A DNA stretch of 25,627 nucleotides, from IMG/VR virus record IMGVR_UViG_3300007539_000182, positions 1-25,627 of that record; one strand, 5' to 3'. The DNA is from a virus. The translations under genes were made by a program, and so were the position numbers. Below are positions 2,236-22,394 of this stretch, piece after piece. Each line of letters starts with the position of its first letter. Position 1 is the stretch's first letter. The notes under the pieces were generated by a model that was not told where the DNA came from, made no database searches, and worked only from the letters and a program-made list of their open reading frames with translations.

Positions 2236-3681
2236 ATGATGTTAGATTTTCAACCAAAACCACCAGCGCCATCGATGGAAACGAACGAACGATGGGAACA
2301 TAACGCTCTACGTGTTAGAATGTTACGTGGACAATGGCAAGACGATTTGGAACAGGAATTGGCTCGCCACGTGTCCAGAGAACGCCGAGCGGCATGGGGT
2401 GTTAGTGATATGTCATCCAATGTTTTCAAGGCTACATCCAAATCATTATCGGCTTTGTACAACGAACCACCAATGATTGGTATCGATGCCAACCGTGAAT
2501 CGATGCAAGGATTTTTGGGTGATGATGGATTGATATATCAAAGTGGTTTATGGGCTATGATGCAATCATTTCAAATGTTTACAATCGGATGTCGTGAGAT
2601 GTTCATGCGCGTCGATATCAGTGATTCCAATGGTTTGTTGTTTCGTCCAGTTACACCGGATTTGATCTATTGCGAATCATCAAGTGGAGATCCAAATCAG
2701 CTTCGATTTTTGTATGAATTGAGATTACGACACCATCCACATTCCAAAGAAGTAATTTGGACCGCTGATGTTTTTGATTTGCATGATATGTCCAATCCAA
2801 AGATGAAAATCGTGGAAATGAATAATGATGGAACACTTGGTGAAGATTTTACAAAAGAATATTTGGGCAGTGAAATGGATGGTGAAAATTACCCATTCAG
2901 ATTTTCCGATGGTTCACCGGTTATTCCGTACTCAATGTATCACGCCGAAATCACTGGAAAATTATTTAATAGTTTTGAAAATGCGGAAGTCGTATACGGT
3001 TCCCTCACAGCCGCCGCGCTATATACCTATTGGTTACATTTGACGCGAGACACGGGATTTCCTCAACGCTATATAGCCGGATTGCAATTGGCCGGTTTGA
3101 ATATTCGAGATACAGATACCGCCGCAAAACGCGCAGCCATATCAACCGATCCGGCTTCCATTTTGGTATTCACACAAGATCCGGATAATGTTGGACAACC
3201 GATGATTGGACAATTCCAACCCGGTGGTGACCCATCCACCGTTTTGGAAGCGGTTATACAATATGAACGTAAAGTCGCACAAATGGCCGGTATCAACCCC
3301 GGAGATATCGAACGGTTATCCGGCGATCCACGAAGCGGTTACGCCATAGCAGTATCAAAAGAATCGATGCGTGAAGCCCAAGCAAGATACAAACCATCGT
3401 TCGAACGTGGCGATCAAATGACGTTATCACTTGCGGCGATGATGGCAAATCGTTTTTTGGGTTTTGATCTTCCAGAAAGTGGATATAAAATCAGATATGC
3501 ACGAATCGGATTATCAGTGGAAGAAAAGAGAGAACAACGAAATGACATCAAAGAAAAATTGGCGTCCAATCTTATAGCACCAATCGATGCGATGATGGAA
3601 TTGTATCCGGATTTATCTGAAGAAGAAGCCGCCGAAAAAATTCGTGAAATACAACGTCAAAAAGCTTTATTTTTAATTTAA
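2236..3681 (+). CDS. Portal protein
   Basis: A 481-aa protein directly after the large terminase, with the length and composition of a portal that forms the dodecameric DNA gate at the capsid vertex. Features typical of portals are the N-terminal stretch MSSNVFKATSKSLSALYNEPP (about 57-77), a central mixed alpha/beta clip/wing region, and a long helical C-terminal part with DPRSGYAIAVSKESMREAQ (about 367-385), like the conserved crown/stem region. A second Met follows at once, so the start may be 2239; AAAGGATT upstream serves either. Assignment rests on position plus these segments; I cannot place it in a named portal family. Confidence 0.85.
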   Translation: MMLDFQPKPPAPSMETNERWEHNALRVRMLRGQWQDDLEQELARHVSRERRAAWGVSDMSSNVFKATSKSLSALYNEPPMIGIDANRESMQGFLGDDGLIYQSGLWAMMQSFQMFTIGCREMFMRVDISDSNGLLFRPVTPDLIYCESSSGDPNQLRFLYELRLRHHPHSKEVIWTADVFDLHDMSNPKMKIVEMNNDGTLGEDFTKEYLGSEMDGENYPFRFSDGSPVIPYSMYHAEITGKLFNSFENAEVVYGSLTAAALYTYWLHLTRDTGFPQRYIAGLQLAGLNIRDTDTAAKRAAISTDPASILVFTQDPDNVGQPMIGQFQPGGDPSTVLEAVIQYERKVAQMAGINPGDIERLSGDPRSGYAIAVSKESMREAQARYKPSFERGDQMTLSLAAMMANRFLGFDLPESGYKIRYARIGLSVEEKREQRNDIKEKLASNLIAPIDAMMELYPDLSEEEAAEKIREIQRQKALFLI

Positions 3682-3700
3682 CTTTTCCAAAGGAGGAACC

Positions 3701-4342
3701 ATGGAAACAAAACTAATTGATGGTGTGGAATACATCGCAAAAGAACACGTCGATGGATTGATACAAGATAAAATATCGAAGTATGCAAAACGAACACGTG
3801 AAGCCGAAACACAAATTGAAGAAATGAACCAACGATTGTTGGAAGCCGGTGAAAAACTGAAAACCGTGGACAATCTAACTGAACAAATTTATGGATTAAA
3901 AGAGGAATTGCAAAACGCAAATACAAAATATGAACGCCATGCGGCAATTGCTGAAATGGGTATACAAGATCCGGACGTTCGTGATGCGTTGGAATGGCAA
4001 TATCAAAGATCAAACAGTGAACAATCATTTGGTGATTGGATGAAGGGATTGAAAGAAAATCCGGAAAACGCTCCATCATTCCTTCGTTCACATTTCCAAA
4101 CACCAGAACCGCCAAAAATGGAAAATAACGCCGTTGAAAAAGTGGAGACTATCAAAGAGACACCACAACCAAAAGAACCGCCAAAAACCAATCAAAAAAC
4201 CGTACAATCAAACAATACAGAAACAAACAAAGATATCTTATCGAGAGGTTTGAACGATCCAAGTTTTTACAAAGCGAATCGAGAAGCAATTCGAAACGCT
4301 TGGTTCCAACAATCCGGAACAAAACCCAATACGAAATTTTGA
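3701..4342 (+). CDS. Capsid scaffold protein
   Basis: A 213-aa protein with a classic scaffold profile: charged, with a strong coiled coil at about 25-85 (REAETQIEEMNQRLLEAGEK, LTEQIYGLKEELQNANTKYE), then a low-complexity Pro/Lys/Asn/Thr/Glu region from about 135. Scaffolds guide capsid assembly and then leave the shell. It has the strong SD AAAGGAGGA (3689-3697) and follows the portal. Unusually, the major capsid gene does not come next: 3.6 kb of small genes, a repeat array and an inverted fibre cassette intervene. No protease motif is visible, so it is probably scaffold only. The stop overlaps the next start (TGATG). Confidence 0.8.
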   Translation: METKLIDGVEYIAKEHVDGLIQDKISKYAKRTREAETQIEEMNQRLLEAGEKLKTVDNLTEQIYGLKEELQNANTKYERHAAIAEMGIQDPDVRDALEWQYQRSNSEQSFGDWMKGLKENPENAPSFLRSHFQTPEPPKMENNAVEKVETIKETPQPKEPPKTNQKTVQSNNTETNKDILSRGLNDPSFYKANREAIRNAWFQQSGTKPNTKF

Positions 4343-4560
4343 TGAAACGATTTTTTGAAAAATATGTTGAAAAACGGATGATGAATTTTTATTGTCGAAA
4401 ATCCGGATTGGTTCGCAACACGGTTTGGTGTTGGAAAACTGGAAGGAATAAACCATCGACATTCGAAATCATTTGTTGGTGTGAAGCCATCGCCAAACAT
4501 CAAAATTTGAACCACGAAGATTTGATATTGGAAGCTTTGGATGAAATCGTGAATGGATGA
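4342..4560 (+). CDS. Small HTH protein A (XRE-like)
   Basis: A 72-aa protein with an XRE-like helix-turn-helix at about 16-50: CRKSGLVRNTVWCWKTGRNK then PSTFEIICWCEAIA, a turn and recognition helix followed by the usual core helix. I chose the start at 4342 because it overlaps the scaffold stop as TGATG; an in-frame ATG at 4300 lies inside the scaffold gene and is less likely. It resembles the next gene product (about 15 of 54 aligned residues identical by eye, including the end motif D[LI]ILEA) and the regulator at 22137. It is rich in Trp and Cys. Probably DNA-binding; target unknown. Confidence 0.7.
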   Translation: MKRFFEKYVEKRMMNFYCRKSGLVRNTVWCWKTGRNKPSTFEIICWCEAIAKHQNLNHEDLILEALDEIVNG

Positions 4561-4850
4561 AAGATTTTTTTGAAATATATATCGATGGACATTGGAAACA
4601 CTTCCAATCGATTGGATATTCGCATGGAACATTGTGTCGATGGAAATATACAAATTGCACACCACGTCCGAAATCGCTTTGGAATCTTTGTTTGGACATT
4701 TCCAAATTCTGGAATGTGGAACATCATGATATAATATTGGAAGCAGTTCGAAACGTAAAAGGGGAACCATGTCAAAATATAATACATCGAAAATTGGAAA
4801 AAAAATCAAAAAAATCCGTAAAGAAGGAAAACCCCAAAAACAAGCTATAG
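4557..4850 (+). CDS. Small HTH protein B, paralogue of A, overprinted tail
   Basis: A 97-aa protein whose first ~70 residues align with the upstream HTH protein (shared G..T..WK.....P motif and HxDIILEAV). Start and upstream stop overlap as ATGA. After residue 70 it continues as a 27-aa Lys-rich tail in the same DNA that encodes the 46-aa basic protein in another frame (4769-4909). Protein A stops just where this tail begins, so the tail probably arose by loss of an ancestral stop. It ends in TAG. Predicted DNA-binding protein; its place before the DnaA-box array hints at a role there, but nothing proves it. Confidence 0.6.
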   Translation: MKDFFEIYIDGHWKHFQSIGYSHGTLCRWKYTNCTPRPKSLWNLCLDISKFWNVEHHDIILEAVRNVKGEPCQNIIHRKLEKKSKKSVKKENPKNKL

Positions 4851-4909
4851 CCATCGCGCTATCAATGACTGCCAAAAAACGAAAATCATCCACGAAAAAA
4901 AAGAGGTAG
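4769..4909 (+). CDS. 46-aa basic phage protein (EGKPQKQA motif)
   Basis: A short gene encoding 46 aa with a core I recognise from many phage genomes: KKIRKEGKPQKQAIAIALSM, followed by a Lys/Arg/Ser-rich tail ending KKKR. It has a fair SD (AAAAGGGGAACC just before the ATG) and ends with TAG three bases before the next start, where its own last codons (AAGAGGTAG) provide the next SD. It overlaps HTH protein B by 82 nt in a different frame. The strongly basic composition suggests nucleic acid binding; such proteins often lie near head genes. Function unknown. Confidence 0.65.
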   Translation: MSKYNTSKIGKKIKKIRKEGKPQKQAIAIALSMTAKKRKSSTKKKR

Positions 4910-4911
4910 TC

Positions 4912-5136
4912 ATGATGGAATCACACATTAAAAAATTATTATGGTACGCGTATGATCTTGATAACCAAGGTGAACCGCAATCAAATATATATATGATGGG
5001 TGTGTTCATCGCGGTGGTGTTTGCGCGAAATCTAGGACTAACAAAGAATGATATCTATGGTGAAATGATACGACAATGGAAGGAAATCGATAACCAATTG
5101 AATGAAGATACAATGGGAAACGCCATCGATGAATAA
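4912..5136 (+). CDS. Hypothetical 74-aa protein upstream of DnaA-box array
   Basis: A protein with no family I recognise. SD GAGGT lies in the end of the preceding gene; the true start could be the second Met at 4915. A moderately hydrophobic segment, NIYMMGVFIAVVFARNLGLT (about 25-44), might be an amphipathic or weak membrane helix, followed by an acidic C-terminus (NEDTMGNAIDE). The TAA stop is followed within 2 bp by the DnaA-box array, and the array stays open in this same frame, so readthrough would add Tyr-Pro-Gln-Gly repeats. Probably real because it is coupled to its neighbours. Confidence 0.55.
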   Translation: MMESHIKKLLWYAYDLDNQGEPQSNIYMMGVFIAVVFARNLGLTKNDIYGEMIRQWKEIDNQLNEDTMGNAIDE

Positions 5137-5138
5137 AG

Positions 5139-5291
5139 TTATCCACAGGGTTATATAAGTTATCCACAGGGTTATCCACAGGGTTATATAAGTTATCCAC
5201 AGGGTTATCCACAGGGTTATATAAGTTATCCACAGGGTTATCCACAGGGTTATCCACAGGGTTATATAAGTTATCCACAGGGTTATCCACA
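5139..5291 (+). repeat. Array of ten perfect DnaA boxes (candidate origin)
   Basis: Ten copies of the perfect DnaA box TTATCCACA, all in one orientation, start at 5139, 5160, 5172, 5193, 5205, 5226, 5238, 5250, 5271 and 5283. Boxes are followed by GGG (12-bp unit TTATCCACAGGG) and groups are separated by four copies of the AT-only-plus-G 9-mer TTATATAAG, giving 12-bp and 21-bp steps in a 1-2-2-3-2 pattern. TTATCCACA is the high-affinity site of the bacterial initiator DnaA, and the palindromic TTATATAA spacers are easily melted. The array is therefore a candidate origin, DnaA titration site or DnaA-controlled element. It is the only cluster of such boxes I saw. Confidence 0.85.
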
Positions 5292-5294
5292 GGT

Positions 5295-5328
5295 AAAAAA
5301 AAACCACCGTGTGATATCAGTGGTTTTT
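5295..5328. terminator. Bidirectional intrinsic terminator
   Basis: A perfect 9-bp stem pairs AAAAACCAC (5299-5307) with GTGGTTTTT (5320-5328) around a 12-nt loop. T5 follows on the plus strand and a run of nine A (5295-5303) gives U-rich RNA on the minus strand. It sits between convergent genes (plus gene ending 5136, minus fibre gene ending 5370), where a two-way terminator is expected. Confidence 0.75.
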
Positions 5329-5338
5329 ATGAAAATAA

Positions 5339-5371
5339 TTTTGACTATTTTGGAAAATAGTTTTGACTATT
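5339..5371. repeat. Direct repeat TTTTGACTATT x2 with inner inverted repeat
   Basis: TTTTGACTATT occurs at 5339-5349 and 5361-5371, a 22-bp period. Between them CTATTTT-GG-AAAATAG (5345-5360) is a perfect inverted repeat. The segment lies just past the terminator and reaches the fibre gene stop codon. It may be an iteron-like site beside the DnaA boxes or part of the fibre mRNA 3' end; function unknown. Confidence 0.45.
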
Positions 5372-7187
5372 ATGTCAAGTACCAAACCAAAACATTATCA
5401 GAATCAGCCAAAGCCGCGCCAAAAGTGATTCTAGCAACGGAACCAGCTCCACCATCAGCCGAAACACTAAATTCGTCATTATTCGCGGCGCTTCCAGATA
5501 AAGCCGTTTGATTCAACAAAGCCAAACCGTTTTTGTATACCATAACACCGTTAACTGCGTTTGCATCAAGCGCGCGCGCCAAATCGATGGTGGATGTAGA
5601 TGAACCGGAAATTGTTGATAATTCTTGGTACATTCTCCATCCAGACTTCGCAAATGTGACTGCGTCATCTTGGATTTTTGATGTTTGGACTGCTTCACTC
5701 GCTAGATGTGTACTATCAACCCCCCCGGATTTTACTTGTAAATTGCCTGAAATTCCATCGATTTCCAATGATGAATCATCAACCAAAACATTTAACGTGT
5801 TACTTCCATCAACTTCCAATCCGGCGCCTTCATTGATTCCGATTTGGTCAGAATTGATAATTAAACCGTTGGTTACAGATACTTCCAAAGAACCATCGGC
5901 ATTTTGTACTAGACCACTTCCAGCCACATCAGAATTGATTTTTGCTTTTGTTACGCTATCATCAGACAATTTCGCGGTGGTAATTGCTGAATCTTGTAAT
6001 TTTCCGCTTGGAATTCCTAAATCCTTCAATTGTAATGTATCGGTGTTGATTTCGATGGTTGCATCATCAACATTAACTGCCAAAGCGCTTCCATTTCCAC
6101 CGCTCAATCCATCACCAGCCACGGATGTAGCTATTTTTGATTCAGTAACAGCATTTGAATTTATTTTGTCGGATGTGACAGCATTTGAAGCAATCTTAAC
6201 CGCCGAAACACTGGAAGCCCCTAACTTCGCGGATGTCACGGATAAATCGGCTAGGTTCGCGGTTCCAACGGCAGATCCGGCGATTTCATTTCCGGTTACT
6301 TGATTGGTTCCGATTTTCGCGGTTGTTATTCCACCGTCTTTCAATTGAAGCGCGTTACTTCCATTGACTTCAATTGTACTATCATCAACAGATACTGCGA
6401 CTGCATTTGAATCGATGAACAATCCATTACCGGCTTCTACTGCAACTGCACCAGAAGCAATTTGTAACCCTGCACCGGCATCAACTGAAAGTGTATTTCC
6501 AGTTTTATCAAGCCCATCACCAGCGGTTACTTGTCCGAGACCTGTAAATTGTACAAATGTAACATCACTACTTCCAATTGTGACAACTTCATCAGTTTGT
6601 ACAAAACCTTGATCGGCATTGGTGGAACCTTCTTTAACGAATACCGCTGCTCCATTTAATTCCGCCGCTGAATCACAATCCGATGCTCTTGACATAGCCG
6701 ATCCGGAACCATTAAAAACATAAACACCATTTTCTGATGCGGTATCTTGATCTTTTACAAGTATACGATCATCGGTTGATAGTGTTACACCATCGATTGC
6801 AGCCGGCGCGTTTGTAAGACTAATATTTTCGGTTGAAGCAACACGAACCGGTGGTTTCCAATAAATATTGGAGGATACCACACTATCCACATAACTTTTA
6901 TTGGCAACCTCAGACGAACTGGATGGTGTATTAGCTTTTAATGTACCATTTACAAAATTCCATGTAGCTGTAAGATCACATGCTGCCGGAGTAACGGCAC
7001 CCGTGGCAATTTTACCCGATACAACGGAACCATTAGCCAATTGATATTGTCCAACTGCAAAATTGGATATTTTTGCTTGGGTTACTGCCCCAGCGGCGAT
7101 TTTTGTCGCGGTGACCGAACTTGCGTTTAATTTATCTTCGGTTATCGCACTATCTTTTATTTGTGCACTAGTAATTTGAACAGCCAT
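5370..7187 (-). CDS. Tail fibre protein
   Basis: A 605-aa receptor-binding fibre, probably trimeric. The N-terminal ~60 residues carry repeats of the form xxAIT-xxKL/I (DSAITEDKL, ASSVTATKI, AGAVTQAKI), which recur at about 290-430 and form beta-structured shaft. A conserved fibre module follows: ATWNFVNGTLKA with SYVDSVV, then a domain with VRVAST, DDRILVKDQDTASENGVYVF and TNADQGFVQTDEVVTIGS (about 115-215). The C-terminal ~90 residues (VNGVMVYKNGLALLN to DSDNVLVWYLT) form a beta domain resembling the next gene's product. The SD is GGAGC. It lies on the opposite strand to all neighbouring structural genes. Confidence 0.85.
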   Translation of the reverse strand: MAVQITSAQIKDSAITEDKLNASSVTATKIAAGAVTQAKISNFAVGQYQLANGSVVSGKIATGAVTPAACDLTATWNFVNGTLKANTPSSSSEVANKSYVDSVVSSNIYWKPPVRVASTENISLTNAPAAIDGVTLSTDDRILVKDQDTASENGVYVFNGSGSAMSRASDCDSAAELNGAAVFVKEGSTNADQGFVQTDEVVTIGSSDVTFVQFTGLGQVTAGDGLDKTGNTLSVDAGAGLQIASGAVAVEAGNGLFIDSNAVAVSVDDSTIEVNGSNALQLKDGGITTAKIGTNQVTGNEIAGSAVGTANLADLSVTSAKLGASSVSAVKIASNAVTSDKINSNAVTESKIATSVAGDGLSGGNGSALAVNVDDATIEINTDTLQLKDLGIPSGKLQDSAITTAKLSDDSVTKAKINSDVAGSGLVQNADGSLEVSVTNGLIINSDQIGINEGAGLEVDGSNTLNVLVDDSSLEIDGISGNLQVKSGGVDSTHLASEAVQTSKIQDDAVTFAKSGWRMYQELSTISGSSTSTIDLARALDANAVNGVMVYKNGLALLNQTALSGSAANNDEFSVSADGGAGSVARITFGAALADSDNVLVWYLT

Positions 7188-7212
7188 ATATAGCTCCTAT
7201 TTTTGATTAAGA

Positions 7213-7458
7213 TTATCCAACCACAAAATCAATGAATAGAAAATCACCAATCTGCGGTGTGAATGAGAGTGAAAAAGACGTTGACGAATTAAATGATATA
7301 TCATTTGGAGATTGTCGTATTCCATTATAGTATACACGTAATGAATCTTGATTCATAGATGATGAAGTGTTAAAAGATTGCGTAATTCCATCAATTTGAT
7401 CTGAAATATCGAATTGTAGTAATTCCGAAATTCCATCACTGTATAATAACCGCGCCAT
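7213..7458 (-). CDS. Small fibre-associated protein (YYNG..Q domain)
   Basis: An 81-aa, beta-rich protein. The stretch DSLRVYYNGIRQSPNDISFN followed by SFTPQIGDFLFIDFVV matches the pattern of a compact domain found in phage fibres (V-x-x-NG-x-x-Q ... GD-x-L-x-I-x-F) and resembles the fibre's own C-terminal domain (VMVYKNGLALLN ... DNVLVWYL). It has a strong SD (GGAGGAAAC) and lies upstream of the fibre gene in the same minus-strand unit. It probably decorates or caps the fibre, or is a separate structural protein of the same fold; that role is inferred. Confidence 0.65.
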   Translation of the reverse strand: MARLLYSDGISELLQFDISDQIDGITQSFNTSSSMNQDSLRVYYNGIRQSPNDISFNSSTSFSLSFTPQIGDFLFIDFVVG

Positions 7459-7491
7459 GTTTCCTCCTTAGCGATGTTATGAAATGTTATA

Positions 7492-7791
7492 TTATTCCAA
7501 AATGATAGAAACCGAAGCGGTTCCAGTTTGCGCGGCTACAAAAATCGATGATGCACGTTGTGTATCGTTTTTCAATTCAAGTTCCAAATAATTGTTGGAT
7601 GTTACGAACGCTTTATGTGTACCAACCACACCGGAATCGGACGCGCCATTTTGCCCAACATACAAAGCGGTGGACGCTCCAATGGTGACACGTTTGGCGC
7701 CAAGTGGAAGAACGATTTCGGACTACGTGGTTCCAACGCTAACAACATATATGAATGGAAATGAATTTGATGATGATAAATCGGTAGCCAT
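7492..7791 (-). pseudogene. Small structural protein ORF broken by in-frame TAG
   Basis: Reading the minus strand from ATG at 7791 (SD AAAAGGATT) gives 22 residues starting MATDLSSSNSFPFIYVV, then TAG at 7725-7723, then 76 more in-frame residues (SEIVLPLGAKRVTIGAS, ALYVGQNGASDSG, NNYLELELKN, SIFVAAQTGTASVSIILE) to TAA at 7494-7492. Both halves look like one small beta-rich virion protein, and the downstream part has no obvious start of its own. It heads the minus-strand fibre unit. Options are a recent nonsense mutation, amber readthrough (one change from CAG would give Gln) or a sequencing error. TAG ends a few other genes here, so global recoding is unlikely. Confidence 0.6.
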
Positions 7792-7807
7792 AACAAAATC
7801 CTTTTGT

Positions 7808-7836
7808 TTGAAAATAGTATGAATTTAGTATATAAT
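7808..7836 (+). promoter_or_regulatory. Strong sigma70-type promoter for capsid operon
   Basis: TTGAAA (7808-7813), a 17-bp spacer and a perfect TATAAT (7831-7836) point towards the capsid gene. This is the best sigma70 promoter match in the window and would give a ~110-nt leader. The surrounding ~160 bp between divergent genes is very AT-rich; a leftward promoter for the fibre unit must lie here too, but I found only weak candidates (for example TATACT on the minus strand, overlapping this -10). Confidence 0.75.
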
Positions 7837-7875
7837 GTAACATATTGTGATAATATATCATAATATTATATATAT

Positions 7876-7913
7876 GTGTGGAAACGGTCACACCGGTTAA
7901 CAGTGGAATCCAC
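7876..7913 (+). other. Inverted repeats in capsid mRNA leader
   Basis: GTGTG (7876-7880) pairs with CACAC (7889-7893), and GTGGA-A-TCCAC (7903-7913) is a second short hairpin. Both lie in the predicted leader of the capsid transcript and could stabilise the mRNA or serve as protein sites. They are short, so this is tentative. Confidence 0.35.
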
Positions 7914-7952
7914 AAATTTATTTTTTCACTTTTAACAAATAGGATATAAAAA

Positions 7953-8882
7953 ATGTCTTTACAAGATTTAGATTTTGCCGGACTTGAAACCGGCGGTTTG
8001 CGCCTTGCGGCGATGATTGAAGCCGAAGTACGCGCACTTTTGGCCGATAACGCCTCCATTCGTCAATCCGGTGCTTTGCTTTTTGCTGGTGATGTTGCCA
8101 ATATTGGCTCGGATTCCATCACACTTCGTTTCGCTGGTTTAGATGGTTATGATGCTATGGCTTCCGCTTCCGATGGTGCTGATGTAAGCGCTTCACAACT
8201 CGAAATGGACACCGCAACAATCACAGTCGCACGTCAAGCACTTCGTTACGATATGACCGACCTCGCGAATTTGTCCGGGCTTGGATCCGATATTTCACCG
8301 TTTCGCTTAGCTGAAAGTATGGTTGGAGCGTTCGAAGCTCGTTTTATGGAAATCGTAGCGGCTACATTTGGAAGTTTTGGAACCAGTGTCGGAACATCCG
8401 GTGTTGATATGTCTATCGATGATTTTCTCGATGGTGTTTTCGCTTTGGAATTGGCCAACAATCCATCACAAATTTTTGCGGTATTACATCCACGTCAAAT
8501 TGCAGATCTACAAGCATCAATCCGCAATGAAGCCGCGAACGCTATAGCATTCAATTCAGCATCTCACGATATGTTGAAGATGATGGGACAAGGATATGTC
8601 GGTGATTTCCTTGGTGTTCAAATACATAAATCTTCTTATGTTGCGGAATCCGCTGGAAATAAACAAGGTGCTATGTTCAGCGCTGGTGCAATCGCATACG
8701 CAATCGGAACACCCGCGCCAATGGTTGGAGCCGGTGGCGAAGTAAGACCAGCCGGAACACCAATCGTTGTTGAATATCAACGTGATGCATCCAAAGGATT
8801 GACCGAAATCATTGGAACCGCTTATTGTGGTGCTGGTATCGTTGAAGATGCGCGTGGTGTACTCGTTTCAACGGATGCATAA
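7953..8882 (+). CDS. Major capsid protein (probable HK97 fold)
   Basis: A 309-aa protein in the size range of compact HK97-fold shell proteins. Supporting segments are an Ala-rich N-terminal helix (LRLAAMIEAEVRALLADNAS), TITVARQALRYDMTDLANLS with an E-loop/P-domain feel, FEARFMEIVAATFGSFGTS, the A-domain stretch IFAVLHPRQIADLQASIRNE (about 169-188), and GMxFSAGAIAYAIGTPAPMV-like residues near the end. It has its own strong promoter and a terminator behind it, as expected of the most abundant virion protein. Arg codons are nearly all CGT/CGC with no CGA, unlike neighbouring genes, consistent with high expression. The SD is a modest GGAT. Confidence 0.85.
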   Translation: MSLQDLDFAGLETGGLRLAAMIEAEVRALLADNASIRQSGALLFAGDVANIGSDSITLRFAGLDGYDAMASASDGADVSASQLEMDTATITVARQALRYDMTDLANLSGLGSDISPFRLAESMVGAFEARFMEIVAATFGSFGTSVGTSGVDMSIDDFLDGVFALELANNPSQIFAVLHPRQIADLQASIRNEAANAIAFNSASHDMLKMMGQGYVGDFLGVQIHKSSYVAESAGNKQGAMFSAGAIAYAIGTPAPMVGAGGEVRPAGTPIVVEYQRDASKGLTEIIGTAYCGAGIVEDARGVLVSTDA

Positions 8883-22057: not shown

Positions 22058-22085
22058 TTGATACTGTAAAGTATAGTTATACAAT
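22058..22085 (+). promoter_or_regulatory. Rightward promoter for HTH/replication genes
   Basis: TTGATA (22058-22063), a 16-bp spacer and TACAAT (22080-22085) give five of six matches in both hexamers. It drives the HTH gene at 22137 and probably the resolvase. Its -10 lies on the same bases as the -10 of the leftward promoter and within an imperfect palindrome, so both are likely controlled by one protein. Confidence 0.6.
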
Positions 22086-22096
22086 AATGTGTAACT
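22061..22096. promoter_or_regulatory. Candidate operators in divergent promoter region
   Basis: Two dyads: ATACT-GTAA-AGTAT (22061-22074) and a 22-bp imperfect palindrome at 22075-22096 with arms AGTTAnACA and TGTnTAACT (9 of 11 pairs match). The second covers both -10 elements. Binding by the adjacent HTH protein (22137-22394) is the natural hypothesis, as in Cro/CI-type switches. Confidence 0.5.
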
Positions 22097-22109
22097 ATTT
22101 ACTTGTCAA
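22081..22109 (-). promoter_or_regulatory. Leftward promoter for membrane protein/exonuclease genes
   Basis: On the minus strand a perfect TTGACA (22109-22104) is followed after 17 bp by TATTGT (22086-22081), a weak -10. A consensus -35 with a poor -10 often marks a regulated promoter. It overlaps the rightward promoter face to face, so polymerase on one should block the other. Confidence 0.55.
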
Positions 22110-22136: not shown

Positions 22137-22394
22137 ATGTTAAAAAATCTTATGGATGATTTACAACTTATCAAAAAAATGTCGGTTACATCGATATGTC
22201 AACAATTAGGTGTATCCAGACAAACATATTATAATTGGATCGAAGGGAATCATTGTCCGACATTCAAAAACATTATTGCATTGGCTGAATGTTTCACGGA
22301 TGATTTTTCGGAACAAGAAAAAATAGCTCAAAAAATACAAATGGCTGTATTCCAAACACAATTCAAAAGGATGATAAACAATGGAAAACAATAA
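22137..22394 (+). CDS. HTH regulator (Cro/CI-type)
   Basis: An 85-aa protein with a clear XRE-like helix-turn-helix at about 15-50: VTSICQQLGVSRQTYYNWIE then GNHCPTFKNIIALAECF. The C-terminal part (EQEKIAQKIQMAVFQTQFK) may dimerise. Strong SD GGAG, and it is the first gene behind a divergent promoter/operator region, so autoregulation and control of both flanking units is likely. It is related by eye to HTH protein A at 4342 (about 11 of 35 aligned positions, sharing GxxRxTxxxWxxGxxxP). It overlaps the resolvase gene by 14 bp. It lacks a peptidase domain, so it is Cro-like in size rather than a full CI repressor. Confidence 0.75.
   Translation: MLKNLMDDLQLIKKMSVTSICQQLGVSRQTYYNWIEGNHCPTFKNIIALAECFTDDFSEQEKIAQKIQMAVFQTQFKRMINNGKQ

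Follow-up and report, generated by a model that had tools for sequence, protein, structure and literature searches.

This locus raises the question of why, of two small helix-turn-helix (HTH) genes that lie side by side in a virus, one ends almost directly after the domain that they share and the other runs on through a third gene in another frame. We analyzed the window, that is, the whole 25,627-base stretch of virus record IMGVR_UViG_3300007539_000182. The features on which the argument rests are as follows.

4342 to 4560, plus strand: gene A, a 72-aa HTH paralogue
4557 to 4850, plus strand: gene B, a 97-aa HTH paralogue, residues 1-68 common to A and residues 69-97 forming the tail
4769 to 4909, plus strand: gene of a 46-aa Lys-rich protein of the widespread phage family phrog_2423 (E = 5e-6)
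4769 to 4850, plus strand: overlap of B with the 46-aa gene, 82 nt, codon position 1 of the 46-aa gene being codon position 3 of B
4912 to 5136, plus strand: gene of a 74-aa protein, the fourth of the A-B-46-74 cassette, with no family match better than E = 0.1
5139 to 5291, plus strand: DnaA-box-like array, ten copies of TTATCCACA
7842 to 7866, no strand: conserved palindrome between the fibre module (minus strand) and the capsid gene (plus strand), a candidate HTH site
22137 to 22394, plus strand: gene of a separate HTH_3 protein, no close relative of A or B

A and B had been described in an earlier note on this DNA as tandem paralogues, and they are. BLASTP aligned them at E = 5e-9 with 22 of 69 positions identical, and a profile-profile comparison gave a probability of 97 (E = 4e-11) over 68 columns of B, starting at residue 1 of both proteins. 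The proteins do align as described, but over 69 columns and not approximately 54. Beyond the columns shared in the profile-profile alignment, A has 2 residues and B has 29. HMM profiles of A and B were run over 10,512 ORFs from 143 records (142 loci, many of them mutually overlapping, plus the window), and the reciprocal matches had E values of 5e-8 to 7e-6. Outside A and B, the sole match up to E = 0.05 was the 22137 ORF (A profile, E = 0.019); three copies of one cut-off B also matched, at 0.02. A is fast-evolving, with 38-44% identity between the window and the lineage of L011-L015, where the portal protein stands at 93%. The start of A was taken as the ATG at 4342, which shares one base with the scaffold stop (TGATG). 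An earlier TTG at 4300 is possible in the window, and was rejected because no start is found at that place in L010, L012 and L015. A tandem duplication of a small gene with a Cro/C1 fold is the best explanation for the origin of the pair.

The 22137 protein had been proposed as a third relative of A and B, a proposal that the comparisons do not support. This protein matches Pfam HTH_3 (E = 6e-7; 29.8 bits against 23). Its similarity to A is weak (BLASTP E = 4e-4, profile probability 39), and with B there was no BLASTP alignment and a profile probability of 1, so that similarity above the HTH background to both proteins was not found and membership of the A/B family was rejected. It has matches in two relatives of 29-30 kb, at 37-40% identity, and a weak match (E = 7e-5) in G005, the record that includes L035; there was no match to protein C (below) in G005, and no A or B in its L035 part. 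An inverted repeat, ATAGTTATACA-4-TGTGTAACTAT, lies just upstream of the 22137 gene (22073-22098) and is a plausible candidate site for the 22137 protein itself. Just before the 22137-type HTH gene of L053 (1743-2153, minus strand) is a gene whose 136-aa product carries an RNA polymerase alpha C-terminal domain (Pfam PF03118, E = 2.8e-22), and L054 has a near-identical gene upstream of its HTH gene (the PF03118 search was run on L053). A phage-borne alpha C-terminal domain beside an HTH regulator merits a separate look.

A truer third sister, judging from profile comparisons, is protein C (90 aa; G011:C1:704-973, record 3300010300_000103), which was fetched later and stands outside the count of 10,512 ORFs. 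The B profile matched it at E = 6e-9, and hhalign gave probabilities of 96 with B and 81 with A; against this, a search with the A profile had no match at E = 0.001. Protein C has no Pfam match and adjoins a DNA methylase gene (Pfam N6_N4_Mtase). Where the record of protein C was compared with the window (the middle excluded), the two are 99.96-99.99% identical; the record extends 3.7 kb past the right end of the window, with C 2.7-3.0 kb out. The window is not the whole phage: this near-identical record (L151, G011:C1:1-6000) ends in the DnaA array on the other side. An ORF across the right end of the window gave a weak HNH match, below the cutoff.

At E = 1, neither A nor B matched any family in Pfam or NCBIfam, and neither reached the Pfam HTH_3 profile (PF01381). 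PHROGs gave weak matches only (A, E = 0.16; B, E = 0.041), and a sequence search of solved structures gave matches at chance level, the best at E = 0.17 and 1.1. A and B thus form a small phage protein family, and in none of Pfam, PHROGs and NCBIfam does it have a match that reaches E = 0.01. AlphaFold2 predicted A with a mean pLDDT of 93 as a bundle of five helices with the HTH at helices 2-3, which is the arrangement of the Cro/C1-type (XRE-like) fold. Foldseek and VIA-align placed the model of A among Cro/C1-type regulators, including SinR, P22 c2, 434 Cro and restriction-modification controllers, with probabilities up to 0.99 and, among the best 50 VIA-align matches listed, Z scores of 6.5-7.7 to folds of this type in the PDB. 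There was no Foldseek match at E = 0.001, and the top three were chains of the enzyme MPnS. With SinR, P22 c2, 434 Cro and C.AhdI, A shares the five-helix fold over 58-62 residues (Z 7.4-7.7); unlike them in sequence, it is 11-17% identical and has no Pfam or NCBIfam match. B fits these repressors less well than A. Its model (pLDDT 82, below 50 for residues 86-97) has the helices in the same order as A, and HTH proteins came out on top but weakly (best Foldseek probability 0.44, best VIA-align Z 6.5). From the predicted models, A and B are probably small DNA-binding proteins, and Cro/C1-like regulators are our best guess.

The neighborhood of the pair suggests a different role, which we consider unlikely. 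A and B lie in the block of packaging and head genes directly after the scaffold gene, so the two proteins might not be regulators at all, acting instead in capsid assembly or packaging with the HTH fold used for another contact. However, the predicted fold is closest to Cro/C1-type regulators, and three distant relatives with homologous packaging genes, L035, L037 and L038, are without A and B after the scaffold gene. These three loci (portal 45-54%) have other genes there and do not have the cassette. The best explanation for the arrangement is that A, B and the 46-aa and 74-aa genes are a cassette that follows the scaffold gene in one group of phages. The cassette was found in the records with a portal at least 91% like that of the window, as far as the contigs reach (L028 and L033 stop before the cassette, and L016 and L025 inside it). 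Among the phage-collection matches listed, the nearest terminases were approximately 25% identical. Promoter and terminator consensus scans of 3600-8000 were near shuffle level (21 versus 16.0 and 6 versus 3.9) and were not used.

The cassette group also differs downstream. The fibre module, which consists of the 57-aa, 81-aa and fibre genes, is on the minus strand in all ten mapped cassette-group records, with the fibre gene alone covered in L017. In the window, this module (5370-7665) is on the opposite strand to its counterparts in L035, L037 and L038, which are on the plus strand and each cover part of it. The inversion of the fibre genes accompanies the A-B-46-74 cassette in the records compared.

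If A and B are regulators, a possible target lies between the fibre module and the capsid gene. The 25-nt palindrome ATATTGTGATA-3-TATCATAATAT could be aligned in 9/9 records, two of them with one change. A scan found it in 11 of the 15 cassette-bearing loci (9 exact, 2 with one change), and in the remaining four (L008, L013, L016 and L017) the DNA stops short of this region. In 18 relatives without the cassette, several of which do not cover the region, the best match had at least 5 mismatches. The palindrome alone folds better than most shuffled sequences (z = -2.5), as expected of a palindrome. A 22-nt block before the capsid gene, ACGGTCACACCGGTTAACAGTG (7884-7905), is almost unchanged across the group, and 12 viral contigs contain the exact 22-mer, each being either a known relative or the near-duplicate of the window. 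An RNA hairpin upstream of the capsid gene, in the conserved block, was considered and rejected as weak (z about -0.5 for the two longer stretches); Rfam had no match in the whole window. The recognition-helix sequence HGTLCRWKYT does not vary among the 11 aligned B proteins apart from one residue in L009, and is slightly different in the B of L017; the recognition helix of A varies between lineages. With low confidence, these patterns favor B over A as the candidate for binding the palindrome. A and B would bind DNA and tune the late genes, B perhaps at the palindrome. A fuller scenario, in which the cassette came with the tail-fibre inversion and B binds at 7842-7866 to balance the divergent fibre and capsid transcripts, with the fast-evolving A tuning as its partner, strikes us as rather unlikely.

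The overlap of B (4557-4850) with the 46-aa gene (4769-4909) is 82 nt long and in another frame, as had been described. The searches found a relative of B in 15 viral contigs, 14 of them with a complete B (B of L016 is cut off), which with the window makes 15 records; L004 and L005 have identical B genes, as do L006, L007 and L008. In each of these 15 records the ATG of the 46-aa gene lies inside B, B continues past it, and an overlap of 40-88 nt is kept. B is 84 (L017), 92, 94, 97, 98 or 99 aa long. Even in L017, which has the shortest B, the gene extends for 13 codons, its stop among them, beyond the first base of the 46-aa start. The earlier note had asked whether B ends near base 4770 in relatives, and there was no such case among the 15 records. 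A B that ends at the junction was sought in viral contigs with B, A, portal, 74-aa and 46-aa proteins as queries, and none was found. Among 50,697 phage records there was no relative of B and no match to the 46-aa protein, and A matched only at E = 1 and 4; searches of genome contigs with the B and A alignments confirmed no relative. The proposal that B lost an ancestral stop and gained a new tail stands in part: B is an extended gene, and a relative with the ancestral stop did not appear in the 15 records. With no relative ending at the junction among these records, the loss of a stop in B is inferred.

The two junctions of B indicate how the difference between A and B could have arisen. The junction listing covers 13 of the 15 records; the other two, L005 and L008, carry a B identical to listed ones. 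In 15/15 records A ends in an ATGA that overlaps the start of B, the stop of A being formed by the start codon of B and the following A. Relative to B, the start of the 46-aa gene lies in the same register, but the base after its ATG is T or C, which gives TGT or TGC (Cys72). At the first junction, the adenine after the start codon of B thus lets A end in the common ATGA overlap. At the second, C or T after the 46-aa ATG leaves no TGA, and B reads on until the coding sequence of the 46-aa protein happens to give a stop in the B frame. The stop of B is the first such stop (at ATA-GCC in the window, GTA-GCG in L011 and ATA-AAG in L017). The ancestor of B would have ended at or near the junction, and the tail of the present B would have come about as a by-product of the 46-aa gene, the older of the two. 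Translation of the cassette genes would probably be coupled.

The tail is new as sequence, as had been claimed, and there is no indication of its use. Its length is what chance would give: with the 46-aa protein fixed and codons drawn according to phage usage (20,000 draws per sequence), the probability of a run at least as long was 0.42-0.73 in 9/9 sequences tried. Substitutions within the overlap that change the 46-aa protein only, both proteins or B only were 9:14:7, compared to expected fractions of 0.22:0.53:0.25. These 30 changes come from four non-independent pairs, pooled of seven computed, and such small counts could hide weak selection. Differences at the three codon positions in the body of B are mostly at the third (0.07:0.04:0.25 in the window clade and 0.07:0.04:0.21 in the L011-L015 lineage), and in the tail they are nearly flat (0.10:0.09:0.09 and 0.15:0.13:0.18, respectively). 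Over wider comparisons, third positions are slightly in excess in the tail (0.28:0.30:0.33 for the two main lineages and 0.18:0.20:0.29 against L017), and likewise in the 46-aa frame of the overlap (0.20:0.22:0.31 and 0.11:0.09:0.28). Tail residues G69, C72, N74 and I76 are invariant in 11 aligned B proteins; their bases also carry the ribosome-site region and start of the 46-aa gene.

A functional tail, for example a Lys-rich arm under selection that grips DNA or RNA non-specifically, is quite improbable on these data. It would fit the Lys/Asn/Glu-rich composition, a tail that goes on for over 20 residues after the 46-aa start (14/15 records), the fact that all length changes in the overlap leave both frames open, and the slight third-position excess in wider comparisons. 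However, the tail has a chance-like length and neutral-like substitution classes, it is shorter in L017 (B of 84 aa), its model has low confidence, and AAA-rich coding gives Lys in every frame. Given the chance length, the shorter L017 tail, the even substitutions across frames and the low-confidence model of the end, these comparisons suggest an ordinary stop loss with no clear sign, in small counts, of selection on the tail as protein.

A and B had also been placed directly before the DnaA array as its possible controllers. They are nearby, but the 74-aa gene (4912-5136) intervenes. Arrays of TTATCCACA come directly after the 74-aa stop in the window (5139-5291), L015 (6267-6395) and L017 (5157-5241), and this adjacency is what speaks for control. 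The array is present in only these 3 of the 15 records, however, and the other 12 have A and B and no array (a single box-like match is present in L014, one of the 12), which makes control of the array by A and B highly unlikely. We reject A and B as dedicated controllers of the array for this reason. The arrays have 12-nt and 20/21-nt steps in three lineages with differing spacer words, as if they had been gained or lost repeatedly.

The 46-aa gene is, from the distribution of its family, the older partner in the overlap, and the tail of B is the later of the two readings. Residues 11-45 of the 46-aa protein match positions 14-48 of the 52 in the phrog_2423 profile (E = 5e-6), a group of small phage proteins of unknown function. 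Relatives are encoded by at least 478 of 599 listed pattern-matched stretches of viral contigs. Eighty loci were retained, among them the L014 contig, and in the other 79 (L064-L142; 1.5-6 kb of DNA each) the A and B profiles had no match. A family ORF was obtained from 77 of these 79 loci and a start from 75. An upstream ORF of at least 60 aa that overlaps the 46-aa relative by at least 30 nt was found in 0/75; there was no overlapping upstream ORF in 32, an overlap of 1 nt in 39 and of 4 to 26 nt in four, with the caveat that the start was taken as the last ATG before the motif, which biases these overlaps downward. The gene here differs from the rest of phrog_2423 in that the upstream gene overlaps it by 40-88 nt, and this overlap spans the conserved core of the family (KIKKI.KEGKPQKQA). 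The wide family, the 79 other loci without A or B and the position of the overlap on the family core together argue that B ran into an older gene, as had been suggested. The reverse, a 46-aa gene created within the 3' end of B, would agree with its constant company with B in the A/B group but is hardly credible for a gene whose family occurs in many viral contigs, including 79 other loci without A or B, and whose conserved core holds the overlap.

The core itself, EGKPRKQAVAIAL, is partly deleted in L003, L012, L015 and L017, with the Lys-rich ends and the frame retained; in these four the gene departs from the family by this erosion. The 46-aa gene is loosely constrained (dN/dS of 0.24-0.99 over ten pairs; values printed as 0.00 are saturated pairs and were not used), and so is not shown to hold the tail of B in place.

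Taken together, we think it likely that A and B are a tandem-duplicated pair with a Cro/C1 fold and that the older 46-aa gene produced the tail of B as a by-product. The paralogy, the conservation of the overlap, the wider spread of the 46-aa family and the chance-like tail length are supported directly. PMC2268670 lists stop-codon loss among three routes to overlapping genes, and in a published survey of overlaps 87% of the phase 2 overlaps were short, long ones being the rarer case. As in other long same-strand overlaps made by 3' extension of the upstream gene, here the upstream gene reads into the downstream one in the register of the 4-nt ATGA overlap, and the downstream gene is older than the extension. 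The overlap here differs in being long in that register (phase 2 by our own reading), which is the rarer case, and in having a neighboring paralogue that shows the short version.

The B/46-aa overlap is a clear example of a known process, and A and B are a new small family. Side by side, two sister genes have junctions of equal register, of which one ends in ATGA and the other runs on for lack of one adenine. The pair is thus a small test case for whether tails that come from stop loss are ever used, in a family that has a conserved candidate target nearby.
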